Position numbers and translations under genes: made by a program
Source: Pseudomonas sp. MUP55
GTDB taxonomy: Bacteria > Pseudomonadota > Gammaproteobacteria > Pseudomonadales > Pseudomonadaceae
Direction of reading: 5' to 3'
Length of the DNA: 64,000 bases
Assembly (NCBI RefSeq): GCF_034043515.1
Contig: NZ_CP138214.1
Coordinates: 620,001 to 684,000, forward strand
In this document: positions 5,689-62,958 of the stretch, one piece after another
Layout: each line of letters begins with the position of its first letter
Position numbering within the stretch: position 1 is the first letter of the stretch
The notes under the pieces: generated by a model
Seen by the model: the letters and a program-made list of their open reading frames with translations, nothing else
What the model was told of the DNA's origin: nothing
Database searches by the model: none

Positions 5689-5776
5689 TGTGGGAGGGGG
5701 CTTGCCCCCGATGGCGGTGGTTCAGTGAGTGATGTGCTGACTGATACTCCGCTATCGGGAGCAAGCCCCCTCCCAC
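5689..5776. repeat. REPIN (convergent REP pair), copy 1 of a tandem
   Basis: Begins TGTGGGAGGGGGCTTGCCCC and ends with the inverted copy GGGAGCAAGCCCCCTCCCAC about 88 bases later. A nearly identical copy starts 136 bases downstream. Confidence 0.9.
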
Positions 5777-45655: not shown

Positions 45656-46588
45656 ATGGGCAACCCCCTGGCCGGTATCGGCATGGACTCCAACCGCTCC
45701 CAATTCATGGCGCGCCAGCGCATTTAGAGCCAGATCAACCTGCCGCGCCTGTTTGCCGCCATCGATGCCGATCCAGGTATTGTCGGTGCTGGCGTGGTGT
45801 ATATCGATGCCGACTTTAATGTCGTCACACTGCGCGAATTCAAGCCCATCTGCAGCATCAAGCCCAAGCGCGTTATTCTGCGTGAGGCGCAGAAGTACAT
45901 TTCGCCAGCCCAGTTTGTGGAGCAGGTAAAGACTGATCCCCGTGAAGGACGTCTTAGAAAGGAAGCGTTTGACATGGGGCTTTCCTGTGGCGCAGCTGTG
46001 ATCGGTTGGATCGTGGTGTTCAGCGGAAGTGTCGCCGTACCGTTTACGGCTGGCGCCAGTGCGTTTGTGGTCGGCATAGGTGTCACGGCGGCGTTGGCCA
46101 GCAGTGCTCAATGTGGGTTTGGCGTGGCGCGTACCTATAACGAAGTGCTTGAACCCGATGCCAACGACCGCATGGACGACGCGCAATGGTATGGCGCTGT
46201 TTCACCCATCCTGGATGCGGCTTCGTTGCTGGGTATTGGTACGGGGGCGTTCACCACGTTCAGGCTGCTTAAAGCCAAAAAGGCCGCTGCATTGGGCAAG
46301 AGTTGGTATGAGTTACTCAAGGGATTGAGTCGTCAGGAGCGCAAGAAGTTAACCAAGGAACTGCTAAGTCTCAAAGACCCAAGCCTGACTCCGAAGATAC
46401 TGAAGTTACAGCAGCGCGCCGGCAAACTGACCAAGAGCTACAGTTCCACGCAAATTCGGCATGCCACGCTGACCCAGCTCAAGGATGCCTTGGGCGGTAT
46501 GCTGGGTATCTGGGGCAGCCATCGAGCCGGTAACGTGGGTACGGCCGAGACGATCGCCATTGGCCTGTATGAGGACCTGACGGAATGA
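45656..46588 (+). pseudogene. Unknown 310-codon gene with an in-frame amber codon at codon 24
   Basis: An ATG at 45656, with a good AAGGAAG 6-12 bases upstream, reads MGNPLAGIGMDSNRSQFMARQRI and then hits TAG at 45725-45727. The same frame continues open for 286 codons (SQINLPRLFAAIDADPGIVG ...) to 46588, so a single substitution has probably interrupted a 310-residue protein. The 24-residue N-terminal piece carries the only clear ribosome site; internal restarts at GTG 45794 or ATG 45974 are weak. The protein has a hydrophobic glycine/alanine-rich hairpin (about residues 107-155), then DDAQWYGAVSPILDAASLLGIG and a Lys-rich helical C terminus. TTA and ATA codons are unusually common, unlike neighbours. 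The downstream gene overlaps its stop (ATGA). Family unknown; a toxin-like role is only a guess. Confidence 0.7.
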
Positions 46589-47034
46589 AGGGCTTTCCCG
46601 ACACGCGCAGTTTTCTCGCCCGGTACTTCCCCGTTTTCATGGGCACCATTTTCATGGCGATTTTCTCGGGTTCTGCGGCGGTTTCCACCGCTGGCGTTAC
46701 CTACTTACGTGGGGTCGATCCTGCGCTCAAGTCCGGCTCTTCAGGGGCTGCGATCCTTGTGCTGGTAACGGTACTGGTGTTTGGCAATCTGATGATCGCG
46801 CGTGGGTATCTCTGGGCGACCAAACTAGTGGCGGGATACCTCGCATGTTGCCTGCTGTTCGTTTTGCCCATGATTCTATACGGTATCAATCCGCTGGTTT
46901 ACGCCTCGGCGGTGCTGTTCCCGCTGCTGGGGTTATTGCTGCTCAACAGCAAGCGCCATCGCGAGATGCGCCACAAGCTTCTCGAAATACGCCGACTTCG
47001 CCAAGCGCTGCACGCCCGGTACAAAGCCCGGTGA
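46585..47034 (+). CDS. Small integral membrane protein, partner of the interrupted gene
   Basis: A 149-residue protein with about four hydrophobic helices (about residues 15-40, 52-70, 78-100 and 106-122) and a basic C-terminal tail (SKRHREMRHKLLEIRRLRQALHARYKAR in part). The ATG overlaps the upstream stop (ATGA at 46585-46588), so it depends on translation of the interrupted gene or its restart. I do not recognise the family. Membrane immunity proteins for pore-forming toxins can look like this, but nothing here proves it. Confidence 0.65.
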   Translation: MKGFPDTRSFLARYFPVFMGTIFMAIFSGSAAVSTAGVTYLRGVDPALKSGSSGAAILVLVTVLVFGNLMIARGYLWATKLVAGYLACCLLFVLPMILYGINPLVYASAVLFPLLGLLLLNSKRHREMRHKLLEIRRLRQALHARYKAR

Positions 47035-47167
47035 TGGGTAGATTCACCACCTCATCTGGCCCCTTCGCCACAAATATGTGCAACCCTCGCACCATAACCG
47101 CCGCTACAGCGTCGTTTTGGTGCTGTACTGCACCGGGCTCCACGATAAAGCGCAATGACTGCCGCTC

Positions 47168-47182
47168 TGGCATAAGTCTTGC
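47168..47182 (+). promoter_or_regulatory. Sigma-54-type promoter before the amidoligase cluster
   Basis: TGGCAT-5 bases-TTGC: GG (47169-47170) and GC (47181-47182) are separated by exactly 10 bases, as required by sigma-54. The start codon follows 39 bases later. GGTGC / GCACC half-sites about 50 bases upstream could bind an enhancer protein but do not form a standard NtrC site. Confidence 0.6.
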
Positions 47183-47220
47183 GCGCGTTGTGCCCATGCC
47201 CTGGCTCGCAGGAGGCCGCC

Positions 47221-50200
47221 GTGTCGATTCATGTCGCGTTGCACCACGTTACGCATTACCGCTACGACCGGGCTGTTGAACTCGGCCCGCAGATCGTGCG
47301 GTTGCGCCCGGCGGCCCATAGCCGTACGCGGATATTGTCCTATGCGCTGAAGGTGTTGCCCGAGCAGCATTTCATCAACTGGCAGCAGGACCCCCAGGGC
47401 AATTACCTGGCGCGTCTGGTATTTCCGGAAAAAACCGGCGAGCTGCGCATCGAGGTCGATCTGGTCGCCGAGATGGCGGTCTTCAACCCCTTCGACTTTT
47501 TCCTCGAGCCCTACGCCGAAAACATCCCTTTCAGCTACGCCGCCGATGAACAGCGCGAGCTGGCGCCGTACCTGGAAACCTTGCCGCTGACGCCGACGTT
47601 TGCCGCCTACCTGGCCGGTATCGACCGTACGCCGTTGCCGGCCGTAGATTTTCTGGTCGGCCTCAACCAGCGCCTGGCTGCCGATATCGGCTACCTGATC
47701 CGCATGGAACCGGGCGTGCAAACCCCGGAATTCACCCTGGAAAACGCCTGCGGCTCGTGCCGCGATTCGGCCTGGCTGTTGGTGCAGCTGCTGCGCAACC
47801 TGGGTTTGGCCGCGCGGTTTGTGTCCGGCTACCTGATCCAGCTCACCGCCGACGTCAAAGCCCTCGACGGCCCCTCCGGCACCGAAGTGGACTTCACCGA
47901 CCTGCACGCCTGGTGCGAAGTGTATTTGCCGGGCGCCGGATGGATCGGTCTGGATGCCACCTCCGGGCTGTTCGCCGGTGAAGGGCATATCCCGTTGGCC
48001 TGCAGCCCCGATCCTTCCTCCGCCGCACCGATCAGTGGGCTGGTGGAACCTTGCGAGTGCGAATTCACCCACGAAATGTCGGTAGAGCGGATTTGGGAAG
48101 CCCCACGGGTGACCAAGCCCTACACCGAGGAGCAGTGGCTGGCGATCCAGGCCCTGGGGCGGCAGATCGATGGTGACCTGCACAGGGATGATGTGCGCCT
48201 GACCATGGGCGGTGAGCCGACCTTTGTCTCAATCGACGACCCCGACGGCGCCGAATGGAACACCGCCGCCCTCGGCCCGGACAAGCGGCGCCTGTCCGCC
48301 GAGCTGTTCCAGCGCATGCGCAACCACTACGCCCCCAAGGGCCTGGTGCACTTCGGTCAGGGCAAGTGGTACCCCGGCGAACAACTGCCGCGCTGGTCGC
48401 TCAACTGCTACTGGCGCCGCGACGGCGTGCCGATCTGGCACAACAGCGCACTGATCGCCGATGAGCAAGAGGACTACGGCGCTGACGGCGCGCTGGCCGG
48501 GCGCTTCCTGGCCAGCATTGCCGAACGCCTGAAGCTGCCGGCACGTTTTGTGTTCCCGGCCTACGAAGACAATTTCTACTACCTGTGGCGCGAAGGTGCG
48601 CTGCCGCAAAACGTCACCGCCCAGGACCCGCGCCTTGGCGACGATCTGGAGCGCGAACGTCTGCGCAAGGTCTTCGGCCAGGGCCTGGATAAAGTCATCG
48701 GCCAGGTGCTGCCGCTGGCGCGCACGGCCGCCAATGACCGTTGGCAGAGTGGTCGCTGGTACCTGCGCGACAATCACTGCCGCCTGGTGCCGGGCGATTC
48801 GCCGCTGGGTTACCGGCTGCCGCTGGCCTCGCAGCCATGGGTGACGGCGGCGGAATATCCGTTCGTGCACCCCACCGATCCGAACCAGGACCAGCCGCAG
48901 CTGCCGAGTACCGATCAACTGCAAAGCCATGGCGAGCCTGCGGCGAGCGAAGAGCGTGCGCCGAAGCTGGATGAATCCGCCGACTGGCTGACCCGCACCG
49001 CGCTGTGTGCCGAAGCGCGGGAAGGGCGCCTCTATCTGTTCATGCCGCCGCTGGAACGCGTCGAAGACTATCTCGAGTTGGTGACGGCCATTGAGGCGAC
49101 CGCTGAAGAACTGCATTGCCCGGTATTGCTGGAGGGCTATGAGCCGCCGGCCGATACGCGCCTGAGCAACTTTCGTATCACGCCTGACCCTGGCGTGATC
49201 GAGGTCAACGTGCAGCCATCCGCCACCTGGGACGAGTTGGTGGAGCGCACCGAGTTTCTCTACGAAGAGGCGCGGCAAACTCGCCTGACCACGGAAAAAT
49301 TCATGATCGACGGTCGCCACACCGGCACCGGCGGCGGTAACCACTTCGTGCTGGGCGGCGCCACACCCAAGGACTCGCCGTTCCTGCGCCGGCCCGACCT
49401 GCTGCGCAGCCTGATCAGCTACTGGCACAACCACCCATCGCTGTCCTATCTGTTTTCCGGGCTGTTTATTGGCCCGACGTCCCAGGCGCCCCGGGTGGAT
49501 GAAGCGCGCAACGATGCGCTGTACGAACTGGAAATCGCCTTCGCGCAAATGCCCGCGCCGGGTGAAGAATGCCCGCCCTGGCTGGTCGACCGTTTGCTGC
49601 GCAACCTGCTGATCGACGTGACCGGCAACACCCACCGCGCCGAGTTCTGCATCGACAAGCTCTATTCCCCCGACGGCGCCACCGGCCGTCTGGGCCTGCT
49701 GGAATTGCGCGCGTTTGAAATGCCGCCCCATGCACGCATGAGCCTCACCCAGCAGTTGCTGTTGCGGGCGCTGGTCGCGCGTTTCTGGCGTGAACCCTAC
49801 GCGCCACCGAAGCTGGCGCGCTGGGGGACCGAACTGCACGACCGCTTCCTGCTGCCGCACTTTATCCAGCAGGATTTCGCGGATGTGATCGTCGAACTCA
49901 ACGCCGCCGGTTATCCGCTGCGCGCCGAGTGGTTTGCCGCGCACCTGGAGTTCCGTTTCCCCAAGGTCGGCGACTATGCCGTCAGCGGCATCGAACTGGA
50001 GCTGCGCCAGGCTTTGGAACCCTGGCATGTGCTGGGCGAAGAGGGCACGGCGGGCGGCACGGTGCGCTATGTGGATTCGTCCCTGGAGCGTCTGCAAGTG
50101 AAGGTGAGCGGCTTGCCACCGCAGCGCTATCTGCTGACCTGCAACGGCATCCCGGTGCCGCTGCAGCCGACCGGCCGGGTCGGCGAGTTCGTTGCCGGCG

Positions 50201-50511
50201 TGCGTTACCGTGCCTGGCAACCGTCCAACTGCCTGCAACCGACCATCGGCGTGCATGCGCCGCTGGTGTTCGACCTGCTGGACACCTGGATGCAACGCTC
50301 GCTGGGCGGCTGCCAATACCACGTGGCCCATCCGGGCGGGCGCAATTACGACAGTTTGCCGGTCAATGCCAATGAAGCCGAGAGCCGGCGGATGGCGCGG
50401 TTTTTCCGCTTGGGGCATAGTCCAGGCAAGCTCGACGTGCCAACCGTCGTTATCAACGATGAGTTACCGATGACCCTCGACCTGCGGCGTTTCCCCAATA
50501 AAAATGACTGA
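47221..50511 (+). CDS. Transglutaminase-DUF2126 fusion (amidoligase-type)
   Basis: A 1,096-residue cytoplasmic protein. The N-terminal part is a bacterial transglutaminase-like module: beta-rich N-domain (about 1-90, HVALHHVTHYRYDRAVELGP) and a papain-like core with triad Cys180 (ACGSCRDSAW), His229 (DLHAWCEVY) and Asp245 (GLDATSG). The remaining ~800 residues are DUF2126, which comparative studies assign to COOH-NH2 ligase-like enzymes. Motifs include LTMGGEPTFVSIDD near 330 and TGTGGGNHFVLGG near 700. The GTG start (47221) is preceded by AGGAGG. First gene of a three-gene cluster with an ATP-grasp/alpha-E and a second transglutaminase. Predicted to build, cut or transfer peptide-like amides; substrate unknown. 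Confidence 0.88.
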   Translation: MSIHVALHHVTHYRYDRAVELGPQIVRLRPAAHSRTRILSYALKVLPEQHFINWQQDPQGNYLARLVFPEKTGELRIEVDLVAEMAVFNPFDFFLEPYAENIPFSYAADEQRELAPYLETLPLTPTFAAYLAGIDRTPLPAVDFLVGLNQRLAADIGYLIRMEPGVQTPEFTLENACGSCRDSAWLLVQLLRNLGLAARFVSGYLIQLTADVKALDGPSGTEVDFTDLHAWCEVYLPGAGWIGLDATSGLFAGEGHIPLACSPDPSSAAPISGLVEPCECEFTHEMSVERIWEAPRVTKPYTEEQWLAIQALGRQIDGDLHRDDVRLTMGGEPTFVSIDDPDGAEWNTAALGPDKRRLSAELFQRMRNHYAPKGLVHFGQGKWYPGEQLPRWSLNCYWRRDGVPIWHNSALIADEQEDYGADGALAGRFLASIAERLKLPARFVFPAYEDNFYYLWREGALPQNVTAQDPRLGDDLERERLRKVFGQGLDKVIGQVLPLARTAANDRWQSGRWYLRDNHCRLVPGDSPLGYRLPLASQPWVTAAEYPFVHPTDPNQDQPQLPSTDQLQSHGEPAASEERAPKLDESADWLTRTALCAEAREGRLYLFMPPLERVEDYLELVTAIEATAEELHCPVLLEGYEPPADTRLSNFRITPDPGVIEVNVQPSATWDELVERTEFLYEEARQTRLTTEKFMIDGRHTGTGGGNHFVLGGATPKDSPFLRRPDLLRSLISYWHNHPSLSYLFSGLFIGPTSQAPRVDEARNDALYELEIAFAQMPAPGEECPPWLVDRLLRNLLIDVTGNTHRAEFCIDKLYSPDGATGRLGLLELRAFEMPPHARMSLTQQLLLRALVARFWREPYAPPKLARWGTELHDRFLLPHFIQQDFADVIVELNAAGYPLRAEWFAAHLEFRFPKVGDYAVSGIELELRQALEPWHVLGEEGTAGGTVRYVDSSLERLQVKVSGLPPQRYLLTCNGIPVPLQPTGRVGEFVAGVRYRAWQPSNCLQPTIGVHAPLVFDLLDTWMQRSLGGCQYHVAHPGGRNYDSLPVNANEAESRRMARFFRLGHSPGKLDVPTVVINDELPMTLDLRRFPNKND

Positions 50512-50522
50512 ATGCGATCAAA

Positions 50523-50612
50523 TGTGGGAGGGGGCTTGCTCCCGATGACGGAGTATCAGCCGATACATGAGTTAACTGATCCGCCGCCATCGGGAGCAAG
50601 CTCCCTCCCACA
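50523..50612. repeat. REPIN inside the amidoligase cluster
   Basis: Convergent pair with slightly diverged stems (GGCTTGCTCCCGA; CGGGAGCAAGCTCCCTCCCAC). It separates the first and second genes of the cluster, where it may tune read-through. Confidence 0.88.
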
Positions 50613-50670
50613 GCGGATTTGCAGTGTTTGTTGAGTTAACCTGACTTCCCTTGCCTCTGCCGAGCGTTCC

Positions 50671-53157
50671 ATGTCCGATTTGCTCGACCGCTATCCGCTG
50701 ACTGCGGGCACCTATCACGAACTGCTGGATGACAGCGGCGCGGTACGGGCCCATTGGCAGCGCTTGCTCGACCACCTGCAACGCAGCACGCCGGCCCAAT
50801 TGGCCCAGCGCCAGGCGTTGTTGACGCGACAGATCCAGGAAAACGGCGTGACGTATAACGTCTACGCCGACCCCAAGGGCGCCGATCGTCCCTGGGAACT
50901 GGACCTGTTGCCCCATGTGCTGGCGGCCGATGAGTGGCAGCACCTGGCGGCCGGCATTGCCCAGCGCGCGCGTCTGCTCAATGCGGTCCTGGCCGACCTC
51001 TATGGCCCGCAGCGCCTGATCAAGGAAGGCCTGCTGCCGGCCGAGCTGGTATTCGGGCATAACAACTTTTTGTGGCCGTGCCAGGGTATCCAGCCGCCGG
51101 ACGGTGCCTTTCTGCACCTGTACGCCGTGGACCTGGCGCGCACGCCGGATGGTCGCTGGTGGGTGACGGCCGACCGCACCCAGGCACCGTCGGGCGCAGG
51201 CTACGCCCTGGAAAACCGTACCATCGTGTCCCGCGCCTTCCCGGATCTGTACCGTGACCTGCAGGTGCAGCACCTCACTGGTTTCTTCCGCACCCTCCAG
51301 GAAACCCTGGCCCGCCAGGCCCCCGGCGATGACCAGACCCCTCTGATCGTGCTGCTCACGCCGGGGCGCTTCAACGAAAGCTATTTCGAGCATCTGTACC
51401 TCGCCCGCCAGCTCGGTTACCCGCTGGTGGAAGGCGGCGACCTCACCGTGCGCGACAGCACCGTATTCTTGAAAACCCTCAGCGGTCTGCGCCGTGTACA
51501 CGCCATCATGCGTCGCCTGGACGACGACTTCTGCGACCCCCTGGAGCTGCGCACCGACTCAGCCCTCGGCGTGCCCGGCCTGCTCGATGCCGTGCGCCAA
51601 GGCAATGTGCTGGTGGCCAATGCCCTGGGCAGCGGTGTGCTGGAATCGCCGGGGCTGCTGGGTTTTCTGCCGAAGATCAACGAGTTCCTGTTTGGTGAGG
51701 CACTGATCCTGCCGTCCATCGCCACCTGGTGGTGCGGTGAGGCCCCGGTGCTGGCCGAGGCGCTGGAGAAGCTGCCGGAGCTGCTGATCAAACCGGCGTT
51801 CCCCTCGCAAAGTTTCGCCCCGGTATTCGGTCGCGACCTGAACCCCGAACAACGCGAGGCCCTGGCCGAACGCATGCGCGCGCGGCCCTACGCCTACGTC
51901 GCACAGGAACTGGCGCAACTGTCCCAGGCGCCGGTGTGGCACACCGTGGATGATCACTTGCAACACCGCGCCATCGGCATGCGCGTGTACGCCGTGGCCA
52001 GTGACGAGGGCTACCGGGTACTGCCCGGCGGCCTGACCCGCGTGGCCGCCGAAGCCGATGCCGAAGTGGTGTCGATGCAGCGGGGTGGCGCGAGCAAGGA
52101 CACCTGGGTACTCGGCGAAGGGGCGCCCGGTAGCGAGCAGTGGCGGGCCCAGCGCACGATTGGGGCGCACGATCTGGTGCGCCGCGATCCCTATCTGCCG
52201 TCACGGGTGGTGGAAAACCTGTTCTGGTTTGGCCGTTATTGCGAGCGCTGCGATGACAGCGCGCGCTGGCTGCGCATCGTGCTGGCGCGCTATGTCGACG
52301 GCGACGATCCGCTGGCCTTGCAGGCGGCCGTGGAACTGGGCGAGAGCCTGCGGCTGTTGCCGGATGAAGGGCCACTCCCCGAGCGCTTGCTCGCCGCGTT
52401 GCTCGGCGATGACTGGCCCTCGAGCCTGCGCGCCAATTTGCAGCGCTTGCAGTGGGCGGCGTCCCAGGTGCGCGGCAAGTTGTCCCGGGAAAACTGGCAG
52501 GCTCTGGTGGAATTGCAGCGCGAAGCCATGGAGCTGGAGCGCGACACCCCGGACTTCGGCGAGTTGCTGGATTTCCTCAACCGCCTGGTGATGTCCCTGG
52601 CGGCGCTGTCGGGGTTTGCCCTGGACGACATGACCCGCGATGAAGGCTGGCGCTTCTTGATGATGGGCCGGCGCATCGAGCGCCTGCAGTTTCTCAGCAG
52701 CAGCCTTGCCGCGTTCCTGCGCGGTGTGGCGGTGGTCGATCAGGCCGGACTGGAATGGCTGCTGGAGCTGGGCAACAGCAGCATCACCTACCGCTCGCGT
52801 TACCTGGCGGTGCCGCAACTGATTCCGGTGCTCGACCTGTTGTTGCTCGACGAGCAGAACCCCCATGCGGTGCTGTTCCAGCTCAAACTGGTGAGCCGCA
52901 CCCTGCGGCGCTTGAACGATGATTTCGGCGTGCCGCGGGAAACCGGCCTGGGGCCGTTGGTGGTGCGGTTGGCGCGCTTCGACCTGGGTTGCCTGGAGAA
53001 CCCGCTGTTTGGCGAATCCAGCGTGCGTGCCGCACTGGACGGCCTGGCCGACCTGCTGCAGGCGGTCGCCGACGAGAGCGGGCAAGTGTCGGATCGCCTG
53101 GCCTTGCGCCACTTTGCCCATGTGGATGATGTCAGCCAGCAAACGGTGTCGCTGTGA
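50671..53157 (+). CDS. Circularly permuted ATP-grasp fused to alpha-E domain
   Basis: An 828-residue fusion. Residues ~1-480 form a circularly permuted type 2 ATP-grasp (DUF404/407): NGVTYNVYADPKGADRPWELDLLPHVL near 52-78, FLRR-type RRLDDDFCDPLELR near 275-288 and the LIKPAFPSQSFAPVFGRDL region near 372-390. Residues ~510-820 form the alpha-helical alpha-E domain (ENLFWFGRYCERCDDSARWLR near 514-534). The two domains are separate genes in many bacteria. ATP-grasp ligases join a carboxylate to an amine, so this is the ligase of the cluster. It overlaps the next gene by one base. Confidence 0.9.
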   Translation: MSDLLDRYPLTAGTYHELLDDSGAVRAHWQRLLDHLQRSTPAQLAQRQALLTRQIQENGVTYNVYADPKGADRPWELDLLPHVLAADEWQHLAAGIAQRARLLNAVLADLYGPQRLIKEGLLPAELVFGHNNFLWPCQGIQPPDGAFLHLYAVDLARTPDGRWWVTADRTQAPSGAGYALENRTIVSRAFPDLYRDLQVQHLTGFFRTLQETLARQAPGDDQTPLIVLLTPGRFNESYFEHLYLARQLGYPLVEGGDLTVRDSTVFLKTLSGLRRVHAIMRRLDDDFCDPLELRTDSALGVPGLLDAVRQGNVLVANALGSGVLESPGLLGFLPKINEFLFGEALILPSIATWWCGEAPVLAEALEKLPELLIKPAFPSQSFAPVFGRDLNPEQREALAERMRARPYAYVAQELAQLSQAPVWHTVDDHLQHRAIGMRVYAVASDEGYRVLPGGLTRVAAEADAEVVSMQRGGASKDTWVLGEGAPGSEQWRAQRTIGAHDLVRRDPYLPSRVVENLFWFGRYCERCDDSARWLRIVLARYVDGDDPLALQAAVELGESLRLLPDEGPLPERLLAALLGDDWPSSLRANLQRLQWAASQVRGKLSRENWQALVELQREAMELERDTPDFGELLDFLNRLVMSLAALSGFALDDMTRDEGWRFLMMGRRIERLQFLSSSLAAFLRGVAVVDQAGLEWLLELGNSSITYRSRYLAVPQLIPVLDLLLLDEQNPHAVLFQLKLVSRTLRRLNDDFGVPRETGLGPLVVRLARFDLGCLENPLFGESSVRAALDGLADLLQAVADESGQVSDRLALRHFAHVDDVSQQTVSL

Positions 53158-54047
53158 TGAGTGCGCGCTATCAGATTTTCCATGACACCCATTATCACTA
53201 TGACAGCCCGGTGTCCCTGGCCCAGCAGCTGGCGCATCTATGGCCACGGCCCTGTGCGTGGCAACGCTGTACCTGGCAAACCCTGGACATCAGCCCGCAG
53301 CCCTCTTCACGCCGCGATGAGCTGGACGTGTTCGGCAACCCGATCACGCGCCTGGCGTTCGAGCGGCCCCATGATGAATTGCTGGTCAATGCCGGGCTGA
53401 CCGTTGAAGTGCTGGCGCGACCCGCATTGGACTTGCGCCAGTCACCGCCGTGGGACCGCACCCGCGACAGCCTCACCTACAGCAGCCAGCCGCTGTCGCT
53501 TGAAGTGATCGAAGCCTGCCGCTATCGCTTCGAATCGCCTTACGTGCATTTGAAAAAAATCTTCGTCGAGTTCTCCGAAAGCTGCTTCCCGCCTGGCGAG
53601 CCCTTATTGCTGGGCGTGCAGGCGCTGATGCACAAGATTTTCAGCGAGTTCACCTTCGATGGCGAAGCCACGCAGGTCGCCACGCCGCTGGTGGAAGTGC
53701 TGGAGCGCCGGCGCGGCGTGTGCCAGGACTTCGCCCACCTGATGCTCGCCTGCCTGCGTTCGCGGGGCCTGGCGGCGCGCTATATCAGCGGCTACCTGTT
53801 GACCCAGCCACCGCCCGGCCAGCCACGGTTGATCGGCGCCGACGCGTCGCATGCGTGGGTTTCGGTGTTTTGCCCGGTGGCGGGCTGGGTGGATTTCGAT
53901 CCGACGAATAACGTGCAGCCGGCGCTGGAGCACATCACCCTGGCCTGGGGCCGGGATTTTTCCGATGTGTCGCCGTTGCGAGGGGTGATTCTGGGAGGGG
54001 GGAACCATGACCCGGAAGTGCGGGTGACGGTGATGCCGCTGGAATAA
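53157..54047 (+). CDS. Transglutaminase-like cysteine protease family protein
   Basis: A 296-residue cytoplasmic protein with the bacterial transglutaminase N-domain (about 5-85) and papain-like core: Cys189 in RRGVCQDFAHL, His232 in ASHAWVSVF and Asp248 in DFDPTNN. All three catalytic residues are present, so it should be active as a peptidase or amide transferase. The ATG overlaps the ATP-grasp stop (TGATG); an in-frame GTG one codon earlier is less likely. It is the third gene of the cluster. Related clusters elsewhere also carry a proteasome-like Anbu peptidase; none is present between here and the window end. Confidence 0.9.
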   Translation: MSARYQIFHDTHYHYDSPVSLAQQLAHLWPRPCAWQRCTWQTLDISPQPSSRRDELDVFGNPITRLAFERPHDELLVNAGLTVEVLARPALDLRQSPPWDRTRDSLTYSSQPLSLEVIEACRYRFESPYVHLKKIFVEFSESCFPPGEPLLLGVQALMHKIFSEFTFDGEATQVATPLVEVLERRRGVCQDFAHLMLACLRSRGLAARYISGYLLTQPPPGQPRLIGADASHAWVSVFCPVAGWVDFDPTNNVQPALEHITLAWGRDFSDVSPLRGVILGGGNHDPEVRVTVMPLE

Positions 54048-54050
54048 CGG

Positions 54051-54161
54051 GATCGTTCCCACGCTCTGCGCGGGAACGCCTGCTGTGACGCTCGGAGTCT
54101 ACCGTGTGCCGGGACGCGGAGCGTCCGAGGCTGCATTCCCACGCGGCGCGTGGGAACGATC
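54051..54161. repeat. REPIN of a third family (GATCGTTCCCACGC)
   Basis: Perfect 14-base arms GATCGTTCCCACGC / GCGTGGGAACGATC about 80 bases apart, with further internal inverted pieces (ACGCTC... GAGCGT). It sits between convergent genes and reaches the stop codon of the minus-strand gene. Confidence 0.82.
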
Positions 54162-54342
54162 AGTCAGCTGGGTCTTTTGGTGTTTCAGTCTCGTCGCTGG
54201 TTTCTTCAGCGTCGACGTCCGCGTTCAGCCCACTGGCTTCTTCATCCGCAGCGGCTTTCTTGCGTTGCAGCTTTTCCTCTTTCTTCTGTTCCTTGGCCAA
54301 GTCTCTCTGACGTTTGGCGAAGGAGTAATTAGGTTTGGCCAT
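54160..54342 (-). CDS. Small conserved Lys/Glu-rich protein
   Basis: A 60-residue highly charged protein: basic N-terminal half (MAKPNYSFAKRQRDLAKEQKKEEKLQRKK) and acidic C-terminal half (DVDAEETSDETETPKD). AGAGGAT precedes the ATG on the minus strand. Short proteins with this start are common in Pseudomonas, but I know no function. The sequence predicts a mostly helical or disordered chain. Confidence 0.75.
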   Translation of the reverse strand: MAKPNYSFAKRQRDLAKEQKKEEKLQRKKAAADEEASGLNADVDAEETSDETETPKDPAD

Positions 54343-61736: not shown

Positions 61737-61752
61737 TGGCACGCGGCTTGCT
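61737..61752 (+). promoter_or_regulatory. Sigma-54 promoter of the amino-acid ABC operon
   Basis: TGGCACG-CGGC-TTGCT is a full -24/-12 match, with GG and GC exactly 10 bases apart. It lies 70 bases before the binding-protein start. The ~240-base region upstream has several TTGCACC/GGTGCA-like half-sites where an enhancer-binding protein could act. Confidence 0.88.
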
Positions 61753-61821
61753 CTGAGCTTTCGGTGAAAGGTTTGAATGCAAGTTGTCGTGCCAAAAATC
61801 AAAAATATCGGAGCACCACTC

Positions 61822-62958
61822 ATGTCCCAGACGTTTTACAAGAAAGGTTTTCTGGCCCTCGCCGTTGCAGCGGCGCTGGGTGTTTCTACGTTTGTTCAAG
61901 CTGATGTGAAAATCGGTGTGGCAGGCCCTATGACGGGCGCCAACGCCGCTTTCGGTGAGCAGTACATGAAGGGTGCCCAGGCGGCAGCCGATGAGGTCAA
62001 CAAGGCGGGTGGCATCAACGGCGAGAAGATCGTATTGGTGGCCGGCGATGACGCCTGCGAGCCAAAACAGGCAGTGGCGGTGGCTAACCGTCTGGCCGAC
62101 CAGGACAAAGTGATCGGCGTGGTCGGGCACTTCTGCTCGTCCAACACCATCCCCGCCTCCGAGGTGTATGACGAAGCAGGCATCATCGCAATCACCCCAG
62201 GCTCTACCAACCCACAGGTGACCGAGCGCGGCCTGGGCGCCATGTTCCGCATGTGCGGGCGTGACGACCAGCAAGGCATCGTTGCCGGCGACTACATCGT
62301 CGACGTGCTCAAGGGCAAGAAAATCGCGGTCATCAACGACAAGGACACCTACGGCAAAGGCCTGGCCGACGCCACCGCGGCTCAGCTGACCAAGCGCGGC
62401 GTGAAGCCGGTGCTCGAAGAAGGCCTGACCCGTGGCGAGAAAGACTTCAGCGCCCTGGTCACCAAGATCCGCTCCCTGGGCGCCGACGTCGTGTACTTCG
62501 GTGGCCTGCATCCTGAAGCCGGCCCGCTGGTTCGCCAGATCCGTGAAGCCGGCCTGAAAGACGTCAAGTTCATGTCCGATGACGGCGTGGTCACCGACGA
62601 ACTGGTAGCGACCGCCGGTGGCGCGCAGTACGTGGACGGCGTGTACATGACCTTCGGCGCCGACCCGCGCCTGCTGCCGGACAGCAAGGCTGTGGTGGAG
62701 CAATTCCGCAAAAACGGCACCGAGCCGGAAGGCTACACCCTGTACGCCTACGCCTCGATTCAGGCCCTGGCCGCCGGCTTCAACGGTGCCAAGTCCAACA
62801 AGGGCGAGGATGCTGCCAAGTGGTTGAAGGCCAACCCGGTCCAGACCGTCATGGGCAAGAAAGAGTGGGACACCAAGGGCGACCTGAAAATCTCCGACTA
62901 CGTGGTGTACCAGTGGGACAAAGACGGCAAATACCACCAGCTGGAAAAGCAGAAGTAA
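61822..62958 (+). CDS. Branched-chain-type amino-acid ABC transporter binding protein
   Basis: A 378-residue periplasmic type I binding protein (LivK/BraC class). Signal peptide cleaves after FVQA near residue 26. The mature chain shows KIGVAGPMTGANAAFGEQY, DDACEPKQAVAVANRL near residues 75-90 and VVYFGGLHPEAGPL near 225-238. It is a paralogue of the classic BraC rather than BraC itself by its N-terminal sequence, so the ligand may not be leucine/isoleucine/valine. The gene lies just downstream of amaBA, and its promoter is sigma-54 type. ATG at 61822 chosen; the frame opens 45 bases earlier without a signal-like start. Confidence 0.92.
   Translation: MSQTFYKKGFLALAVAAALGVSTFVQADVKIGVAGPMTGANAAFGEQYMKGAQAAADEVNKAGGINGEKIVLVAGDDACEPKQAVAVANRLADQDKVIGVVGHFCSSNTIPASEVYDEAGIIAITPGSTNPQVTERGLGAMFRMCGRDDQQGIVAGDYIVDVLKGKKIAVINDKDTYGKGLADATAAQLTKRGVKPVLEEGLTRGEKDFSALVTKIRSLGADVVYFGGLHPEAGPLVRQIREAGLKDVKFMSDDGVVTDELVATAGGAQYVDGVYMTFGADPRLLPDSKAVVEQFRKNGTEPEGYTLYAYASIQALAAGFNGAKSNKGEDAAKWLKANPVQTVMGKKEWDTKGDLKISDYVVYQWDKDGKYHQLEKQK

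Follow-up and report, generated by a model that had tools for sequence, protein, structure and literature searches.

A three-gene cluster, A-B-C, occupies positions 47221 to 54047 of the window, by which we mean the whole stretch of 64,000 nucleotides that was analysed (C1:620001-684000 of a single-contig, 5.95-Mb Pseudomonas-type genome). Gene A joins a transglutaminase-like domain to DUF2126, gene B joins an ATP-grasp domain to alpha-E, and gene C encodes a stand-alone transglutaminase-like protein. The ATP-grasp domain of gene B appears to be degenerate and looks, from its sequence, like a pseudo-ligase, yet it is maintained under purifying selection. We read the cluster as an accessory arm of a widespread ATP-grasp/alpha-E/transglutaminase amidoligase system, with gene B as a maintained pseudo-ligase and with a link to nitrogen limitation, and consider the chances of this reading being right or wrong to be about equal. 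As far as the literature searched shows, three findings are new: the fused protein has lost the ATP-grasp motifs, each DUF2126 genome examined also carries a stand-alone ATP-grasp, and the three-gene cluster has a conserved sigma-54-type element. A sigma-54 or NtrC link is already in print for relatives, in the passages available of the sources cited below.

Gene B carries an apparently degenerate ATP-grasp domain and a retained alpha-E domain

Gene B (50671..53157, plus strand) encodes a protein of 828 residues in which a circularly permuted ATP-grasp (residues 81-459), judged degenerate by active-site comparison, is fused to alpha-E (residues 509-815). Pfam scores were 523 bits for CP_ATPgrasp_2, 373 bits for CP_ATPgrasp_1 and 216 bits for Alpha-E (PF04168). 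The E-x-N motif forms the metal-ligand (Mg-binding) and ATP site of ATP-grasp enzymes. The ATP-grasp domains of 12 stand-alone and 18 fused proteins were aligned. The motif reads E-D-N in the stand-alone proteins (E158 and N160 in the protein of locus L005, described below) and is invariant in 12/12. Among the 18 fused proteins the E is kept in one and the N in none, the latter being replaced by R in 16. The corresponding codons of gene B (51169..51177, plus strand) specify A167-D168-R169, and ADR stands at this position in all 78 Pseudomonas gene B orthologues found. The Gly-rich loop G-G-Y-G of the stand-alone set reads Q-S-F-A in gene B; in the fused set no protein retains the first G or the Y, four retain the second G and one the last G. 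Gene B has thus lost both the E-x-N motif and the Gly loop of a competent circularly permuted ATP-grasp ligase, while the solved relative 3n6x retains E-D-N and S-G-G-Y-G-M. Overall, of the 128 columns invariant in stand-alone ATP-grasps, 34 are conserved in 90% or more of the fused proteins. Because the motif is lost and yet ADR is fixed in 78/78 orthologues, gene B seems to be kept, but not as an ordinary ATP-grasp enzyme.

Divergence among the fused grasp domains is roughly double that among the stand-alone ones (28/28 pairs from 8 genomes, the pairs not being independent). In a tree of these domains, no stand-alone member falls within the group formed by the 18 fused sequences; the printed support of 0.32 is unreliable after rerooting. 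The conserved Glu and Arg residues of alpha-E are mostly kept in gene B. Ten charged columns are invariant in 13 stand-alone alpha-E proteins; eight of them are kept in 14 to 18 of the 18 fused proteins (E525 and R671 in 18, E670 and R532 in 17) and two are mostly lost. Gene B itself has D528 in place of E, and Q594, S677 and H732 in place of R.

In the 80 Pseudomonas loci compared, gene A was found in 80, gene B in 78 and gene C in 77; the nearest relative of gene A was that of Pseudomonas sp. W4I3 (99% identity). The median ratios of nonsynonymous to synonymous substitution (dN/dS) were 0.045 for gene A (n=80), 0.044 for gene B (n=78) and 0.084 for gene C (n=76). All three genes are conserved and, by these ratios, under purifying selection.

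Transglutaminase-like triads of genes A and C, and DUF2126

Gene A (47221..50511, plus strand) encodes 1096 residues, with a transglutaminase-like part (about residues 1-275) followed by DUF2126 (residues 276-1089; 48046..50487, plus strand), as judged from Pfam, the catalytic triad and dN/dS. The Pfam scores for Bact_transglu_N, Transglut_core and DUF2126 were 91.5, 57 and 1357 bits respectively. Gene C (53157..54047, plus strand), recognised by Pfam (Bact_transglu_N 92.6 bits, Transglut_core 70.6 bits) and by its triad, shows similarity to the PDB entries 3isr and 6g49. Both genes possess the Cys-His-Asp triad of transglutaminase-like cysteine enzymes. In gene A it is C180/H229/D245, invariant in 21/21 diverse proteins aligned. 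In gene C it is C189/H232/D248 when counted from ATG 53157, or C190/H233/D249 from the alternative start GTG 53154, and it is invariant in the 24 transglutaminase-like proteins aligned (18 of the C type and 6 from stand-alone operons). An earlier sequence-only reading of this locus had proposed two intact triads, and these alignments bear it out. Its coordinates and gene order agree with the open reading frames (ORFs) and the evidence on starts, and its domain calls (transglutaminase-like, DUF2126, ATP-grasp with alpha-E) were confirmed by Pfam.

The match to DUF2126 (PF09899) is full-length (profile positions 1-826 of 826) and above the curated cut-off. The motifs around GGEPTF, GQGKWYPGE, PDPGVIEVN, GRHTGTGGGNH and GNTHRAEFCIDK are largely invariant in the 21 diverse proteins. 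Pfam words the family as a 'putative amidoligase', and it may be glutamine-synthetase-like. Alignment by hhalign of DUF2126 with glutamine-synthetase-type proteins of the same genome (two proper and one wrong, poorly set up) was not significant. The AlphaFold model had a predicted local distance difference test score (pLDDT) of 51, and structural comparison was uninformative for the DUF2126 part.

Stand-alone ATP-grasp genes accompany DUF2126

The genome carries two further loci of this kind, both far from the window cluster. L004 consists of ATP-grasp, alpha-E and transglutaminase-like genes, and L005 of ATP-grasp and alpha-E only. This second stand-alone pair (L005:7242-9604, minus strand) has no transglutaminase-like or Anbu gene alongside and adjoins a DEAD_2/Helicase_C_2 helicase gene.

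The distribution of the genes was surveyed in 249 Pseudomonadota genomes, stand-alone and fused ATP-grasps being told apart by identity and open-frame length. Alpha-E, which serves as a marker of the system, is present in 132 of the genomes, and DUF2126 in 71. Every one of these 71 genomes also has alpha-E and a stand-alone ATP-grasp, the best match per genome being 51-100% identical to the L005 protein. Fused gene B is found in 65/71. In 64 of these 65 it is no more than 10 kb away from DUF2126, and in 47 it is on the same strand and no more than 1.5 kb away. The stand-alone ATP-grasp is no more than 10 kb from DUF2126 in 39/71.

Gene order was compared in 20 loci hand-picked for diversity from the 71 genomes, so that the counts of 15/20 and 11/20 given here are not random-sample rates. 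The order A-B-C is seen in 15/20, and a stand-alone ATP-grasp gene is in view at 11/20. The exceptions include L134, with the order B-C-A, and L135, where A is divergent from B-C; at L128, L129 and L131 gene A occurs without B and C alongside. In the genome of L129 (G191), where gene A stands alone, the fused B is located on another contig. The order in 15/20 loci and the proximity of fused B to DUF2126 in 64/65 genomes support the earlier view that A, B and C form one system.

A conserved sigma-54-type element lies upstream of gene A

The upstream regions of gene A from the 80 Pseudomonas loci and the window (81 distinct sequences) were aligned. A putative sigma-54-type -24/-12 promoter element, TGGCATAAGTCTTGCGC, lies at 47168..47184 (plus strand), with GG-N10-GC spacing and p=0.0075 against random 250-mers. 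Each base of this 17-nucleotide run is present in at least 80 of the 81 sequences, and no other such run upstream is as long. Its core of the first 15 bases, TGGCATAAGTCTTGC, is identical in 81/81 and begins 52 to 55 nucleotides 5' of the start codon. The eight bases 5' of the element match the window in 32-85% of the sequences. By sequence, GG-N10-GC at promoter distance is therefore present upstream of gene A.

A second conserved block in this alignment, TTTTGGTGCTGTACTGC (47115..47131, minus strand), carries GCACCAAAA on the minus strand and is a candidate activator site. Read against what we take to be the NtrC consensus, it contains half of an NtrC-type site at 47115-47123. GTGCT at 47120-47124 is found in at least 80 of the 81 upstream sequences, and the other half of the site is degenerate. 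Upstream of L004 there is a perfect GCACC-N5-GGTGC dyad.

The matrix used for sigma-54 scans was hand-made from a general consensus; a similar consensus, GGcacg-N4-ttGC, is quoted in PMC5491218. The scan gave p<0.01 at 6/21 gene-A loci and 4/12 stand-alone loci, all positives belonging to the window's class. Sigma-54-like sites were found 5' of both stand-alone loci of the window's genome (L004, p=0.0010; L005, p=0.0062). Elsewhere in the window, an exact sigma-54 consensus, TGGCACGCGGCTTGCT (61737-61752, plus strand), ends 24 nucleotides 5' of ORF 61777-62958, which encodes a periplasmic binding protein (Peripla_BP_6) and adjoins a DAO-type oxidoreductase gene.

Relatives of the cluster are reported to respond to nitrogen

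Published data on relatives are given here as they stand in the passages available of each source. In Burkholderia cenocepacia, I35_5080-83 (DUF404/407, DUF403, transglutaminase-like and large transglutaminase-like) are listed as common targets of sigma-54 and NtrC, with fold changes of -6.0 to -9.4 in an ntrC mutant (PMC5491218). In Pseudomonas putida, PP_2686-2688 rise 11 to 15-fold in the wild type under nitrogen limitation (PMC7801951), PP2685-2687 rise 6.6 to 11.1-fold (PMC3325844), and PP_2685 and PP_2688 show log2 fold changes of 4.4 and 4.0 on nitrate versus ammonium (PMC8050072). RpoN sites have been predicted at an Anbu-type cluster of orthologous groups (PMC12316311) and at a Bradyrhizobium CP_ATPgrasp gene (PMC13207237). 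In marine metagenomes, DUF403/404/407 and Bact_transglu_N correlate with urea metabolism domains (PMC3597751). Nitrogen induction of relatives is thus reported repeatedly, and its sigma-54 dependence is contradicted in one data set, which is considered below. By analogy, the window cluster itself may respond to nitrogen.

Anbu is optional for the DUF2126 cluster

The sequence-only reading had noted that the peptidase Anbu is missing nearby and had suggested a search of the whole genome. A tblastn search for Anbu within the window was negative, in agreement with it. Across the 5.95-Mb genome the sole match to PF00227 was a 181-residue gene, read as HslV, beside an ORF read as HslU, and an Anbu protein query likewise found no Anbu in this genome; the same query finds Anbu in 7/59 genomes of the genus. 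Among the 20 hand-picked loci, Anbu lies near DUF2126 in two (L128 and L131), and neither genome has fused B. At these sites (L128:6358-7955 and L131:11269-12048) DUF2126 is seen together with Anbu and with an operon of stand-alone ATP-grasp/alpha-E, the pseudo-ligase being absent. As Anbu is absent here and present in 2/20 loci and 7/59 genomes, it is optional for the DUF2126 cluster.

PF00227 is weakly sensitive to Anbu: the clear Anbu of L128 scores 22.4 bits, exactly the cut-off, and that of L131, 77% identical to it, is unmatched at E 0.001. For this reason the counts of genomes with at least two PF00227 matches (57/249; 24/71 with DUF2126 versus 31/61 with alpha-E only), a rough proxy, were not used as evidence.

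Proposed mechanism

In the mechanism that we propose, nitrogen limitation would switch on A-B-C through sigma-54 and possibly NtrC. Since the motifs of gene B are lost, the source of any ATP-dependent ligation would have to be either DUF2126 or the L004/L005 pairs. The stand-alone ATP-grasp/alpha-E pairs, possibly with DUF2126, would carry out ATP-dependent carboxylate activation and amide ligation. Gene B would perform no ligation and would act as a partner through alpha-E and its remodelled grasp, binding substrate or product or serving as an allosteric or scaffold subunit. The two transglutaminase-like domains would cleave the amide bond or transfer it. When nitrogen is short, the system would probably serve to make or salvage an amide-linked amino compound, which might be a small peptide, an amine conjugate or a protein tag; both chemistry and product are inferred. 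In a more far-reaching form, which we hold tentatively and think somewhat more apt to fail than to hold, the fused ATP-grasp/alpha-E would be a family-wide pseudo-ligase working in trans with the active stand-alone enzyme. The result would be a two-tier machine (active ligase, dead-ligase regulator or receptor, and DUF2126) that is switched on by nitrogen starvation and independent of Anbu.

Phosphate release from ATP has been reported for a stand-alone ATP-grasp of an Anbu operon (PMC6376114). The literature passages at hand give no other enzyme activity of the system, and those on DUF2126, DUF403/404/407, CP_ATPgrasp, Anbu and the PP_ locus tags, mostly at the level of listings, give no characterised substrate or product. 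Published searches for interactions and activities in Anbu operons did not, in the available passages, consider the fused paralogue or DUF2126. Naming a probable real ligase, its degenerate partner and a likely on-condition, nitrogen limitation, opens the system to direct experiment.

Alternative explanations and points against the proposal

In the sequence-only reading, gene B was an active ATP-grasp ligase making an amide-linked modification or peptide, which the transglutaminase-like domains remove. Gene content of this kind was reportedly predicted by Iyer et al. in 2009 to be a peptide-synthesis or tagging system. That prediction, cited in the passages available of PMC3597751 as peptide synthesis or modification, speaks for an active gene B, as do its full-length CP_ATPgrasp match and its retention of the residues that correspond to R425, G440, R443 and D463 in the stand-alone protein, which 16 or 17 of the 18 fused proteins also retain. 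The E-x-N and Gly-loop residues are gone, however, from the fused proteins aligned, which leaves the 'ligase-plus-hydrolase' assignment of gene B unsupported and an active ligase unlikely. The same reading had named a loss of catalytic residues in relatives as evidence that would count against it; such loss is found for B and not for A or C. Slightly less probable still is a switch of chemistry in gene B, in which the conserved D-R-T-Q-A-P-S-G segment would be a new active or ligand site, for instance for a different nucleotide or an amide product. The R for N in 16/18 fused proteins, the ADR of 78/78 orthologues and the strong purifying selection on gene B are in keeping with it, but the twofold divergence of the fused grasp domains fits relaxed constraint equally, and the structural model of gene B (pLDDT 40) was of no useful quality.

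A protein-tagging system like ubiquitin or Pup, in which tagged proteins would be the targets of Anbu or some other protease, would account for the Anbu genes in related operons (the two loci above). Against this stands the absence of Anbu from the genome and its occurrence in few genomes of the genus by the query used, and no gene for a tag was noticed next to the cluster, where no systematic search for one was made; we regard tagging as improbable. That the three genes belong to separate pathways and are neighbours by chance is already disfavoured and most improbable of all. The 159-nucleotide gap with a repeat between A and B would suit it, as would the loci with A lacking B and C (L128, L129, L131) or divergent from them (L135), but the shared gene order and the near-constant proximity of fused B to DUF2126 run counter to it.

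Several observations weigh against the maintained pseudo-ligase under nitrogen control that we prefer. On gene B, the equivalence of E-D-N with the Mg-binding E-x-N is assumed from ATP-grasp enzymes in general. Profile alignments that pair E-D-N with E-L-N of glutathionylspermidine-synthetase-type proteins were not significant: the pairing appears in three profile comparisons, all with probability below 1%, and in one comparison a different segment had the higher score. One fused protein of the 18, L124, still has the motif E (E-D-H), the loop lysine is kept in 6/18, gene B included, and one loop glycine in 4/18. E-D-N was scored in the 12 stand-alone proteins, a part of the 71 genomes, and fused B is missing from six DUF2126 genomes.

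On regulation, the promoter scan was negative at 15/21 gene-A and 8/12 stand-alone loci, some of the window's own class; at some loci no site is expected because gene A is not the first of its gene group. The NtrC evidence at the window is the one half-site at 47115-47123, and among the loci a perfect dyad occurs at L004 only. Perfect NtrC dyads are found at 42 places in the genome versus 9 for the reversed pattern, and the sole such place inspected shows no obvious nitrogen gene; for these two reasons we do not count a dyad by itself as proof. In the passages available of PMC7801951, a P. putida rpoN mutant induces PP_2686-2688 like the wild type (14 to 20-fold), and PP_2685 (Anbu) is uninduced in the wild type (1.12). 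The mutant data speak against sigma-54 control of that relative and slightly reduced our confidence in the preferred reading. The urt genes likewise stay induced in that mutant (Table 2 of the same source), which is unexpected for NtrC targets.

Gene starts, repeats and neighbouring genes

The mechanical ORF of gene A begins further 5', at TTG 47179. GTG 47221 is supported as its start because a Shine-Dalgarno block precedes it and the codon is conserved: the ribosome-binding site region GCAGGAGGCCG (47208..47218, plus strand) has each base in at least 80 of the 81 upstream sequences, and the start codon is GTG or ATG in 80/80 Pseudomonas loci. Genes B and C overlap or abut at 53154-53157. Between A and B an inverted repeat (50525..50613) was read from the sequence, which we take to be of the repetitive extragenic palindrome/bacterial interspersed mosaic element (REP/BIME) type. 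Its 16-mer TGGGAGGGGGCTTGCT recurs at position 5760 of the window and at 2572 in L005. A GGGAACG-type inverted repeat lies 3' of gene C (54047-54165), and palindromic elements thus flank B-C on both sides.

Just 5' of the cluster is a candidate effector/immunity pair (45794-47034). ORF 45794-46588 (plus strand) matches NCBIfam NF053808 (Ssp4 family type VI secretion system effector) with 315.5 bits at a cut-off of 300, and a 149-residue ORF (46585-47034, plus strand) with no Pfam match overlaps it by 4 nucleotides. In another genome of the same class, a polyhydroxybutyrate (PHB) depolymerase C-terminal domain gene (L118:12160-13728, minus strand) is found directly 5' of gene A.

Comparison with known systems

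In RimK/RimB an ATP-grasp ligase is paired with a peptidase counterpart (passages of PMC12239564), whereas in A, B and C Pfam finds neither a RimK-type ligase domain nor a protease domain of the retropepsin type. The Rlo system of Pseudomonas aeruginosa (RloA retropepsin, RloB inactive transglutaminase, RloC ATP-grasp), as described in the passages available, shares the theme of ATP-grasp and transglutaminase with one dead member. There the dead member is RloB, a membrane protein with an inactive transglutaminase, whereas in the window the triads are intact and the ATP-grasp is degenerate. The solved 3n6x, a putative glutathionylspermidine synthase, belongs to the same ATP-grasp family (E 2.8e-134 with the fused-B profile, 2e-236 with the stand-alone profile), but gene B has neither of the two motifs that it retains. 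The B. cenocepacia genes I35_5080-83 are of the same ATP-grasp, alpha-E, transglutaminase-like and large transglutaminase-like types and depend on NtrC and sigma-54, but there the ATP-grasp and the alpha-E each have a listed gene of their own (passages of PMC5491218). The Anbu operon (Anbu, transglutaminase-like, alpha-E and ATP-grasp; for example P. putida PP_2685-2688) shares transglutaminase-like, alpha-E and circularly permuted ATP-grasp proteins with the cluster, and its induction by nitrogen limitation is reported in the passages cited above. In contrast to it, the window cluster has no Anbu gene, has gained DUF2126 and carries its ATP-grasp fused to alpha-E and degenerate, with separate stand-alone ATP-grasp/alpha-E pairs (L004 and L005) present elsewhere in the genome.

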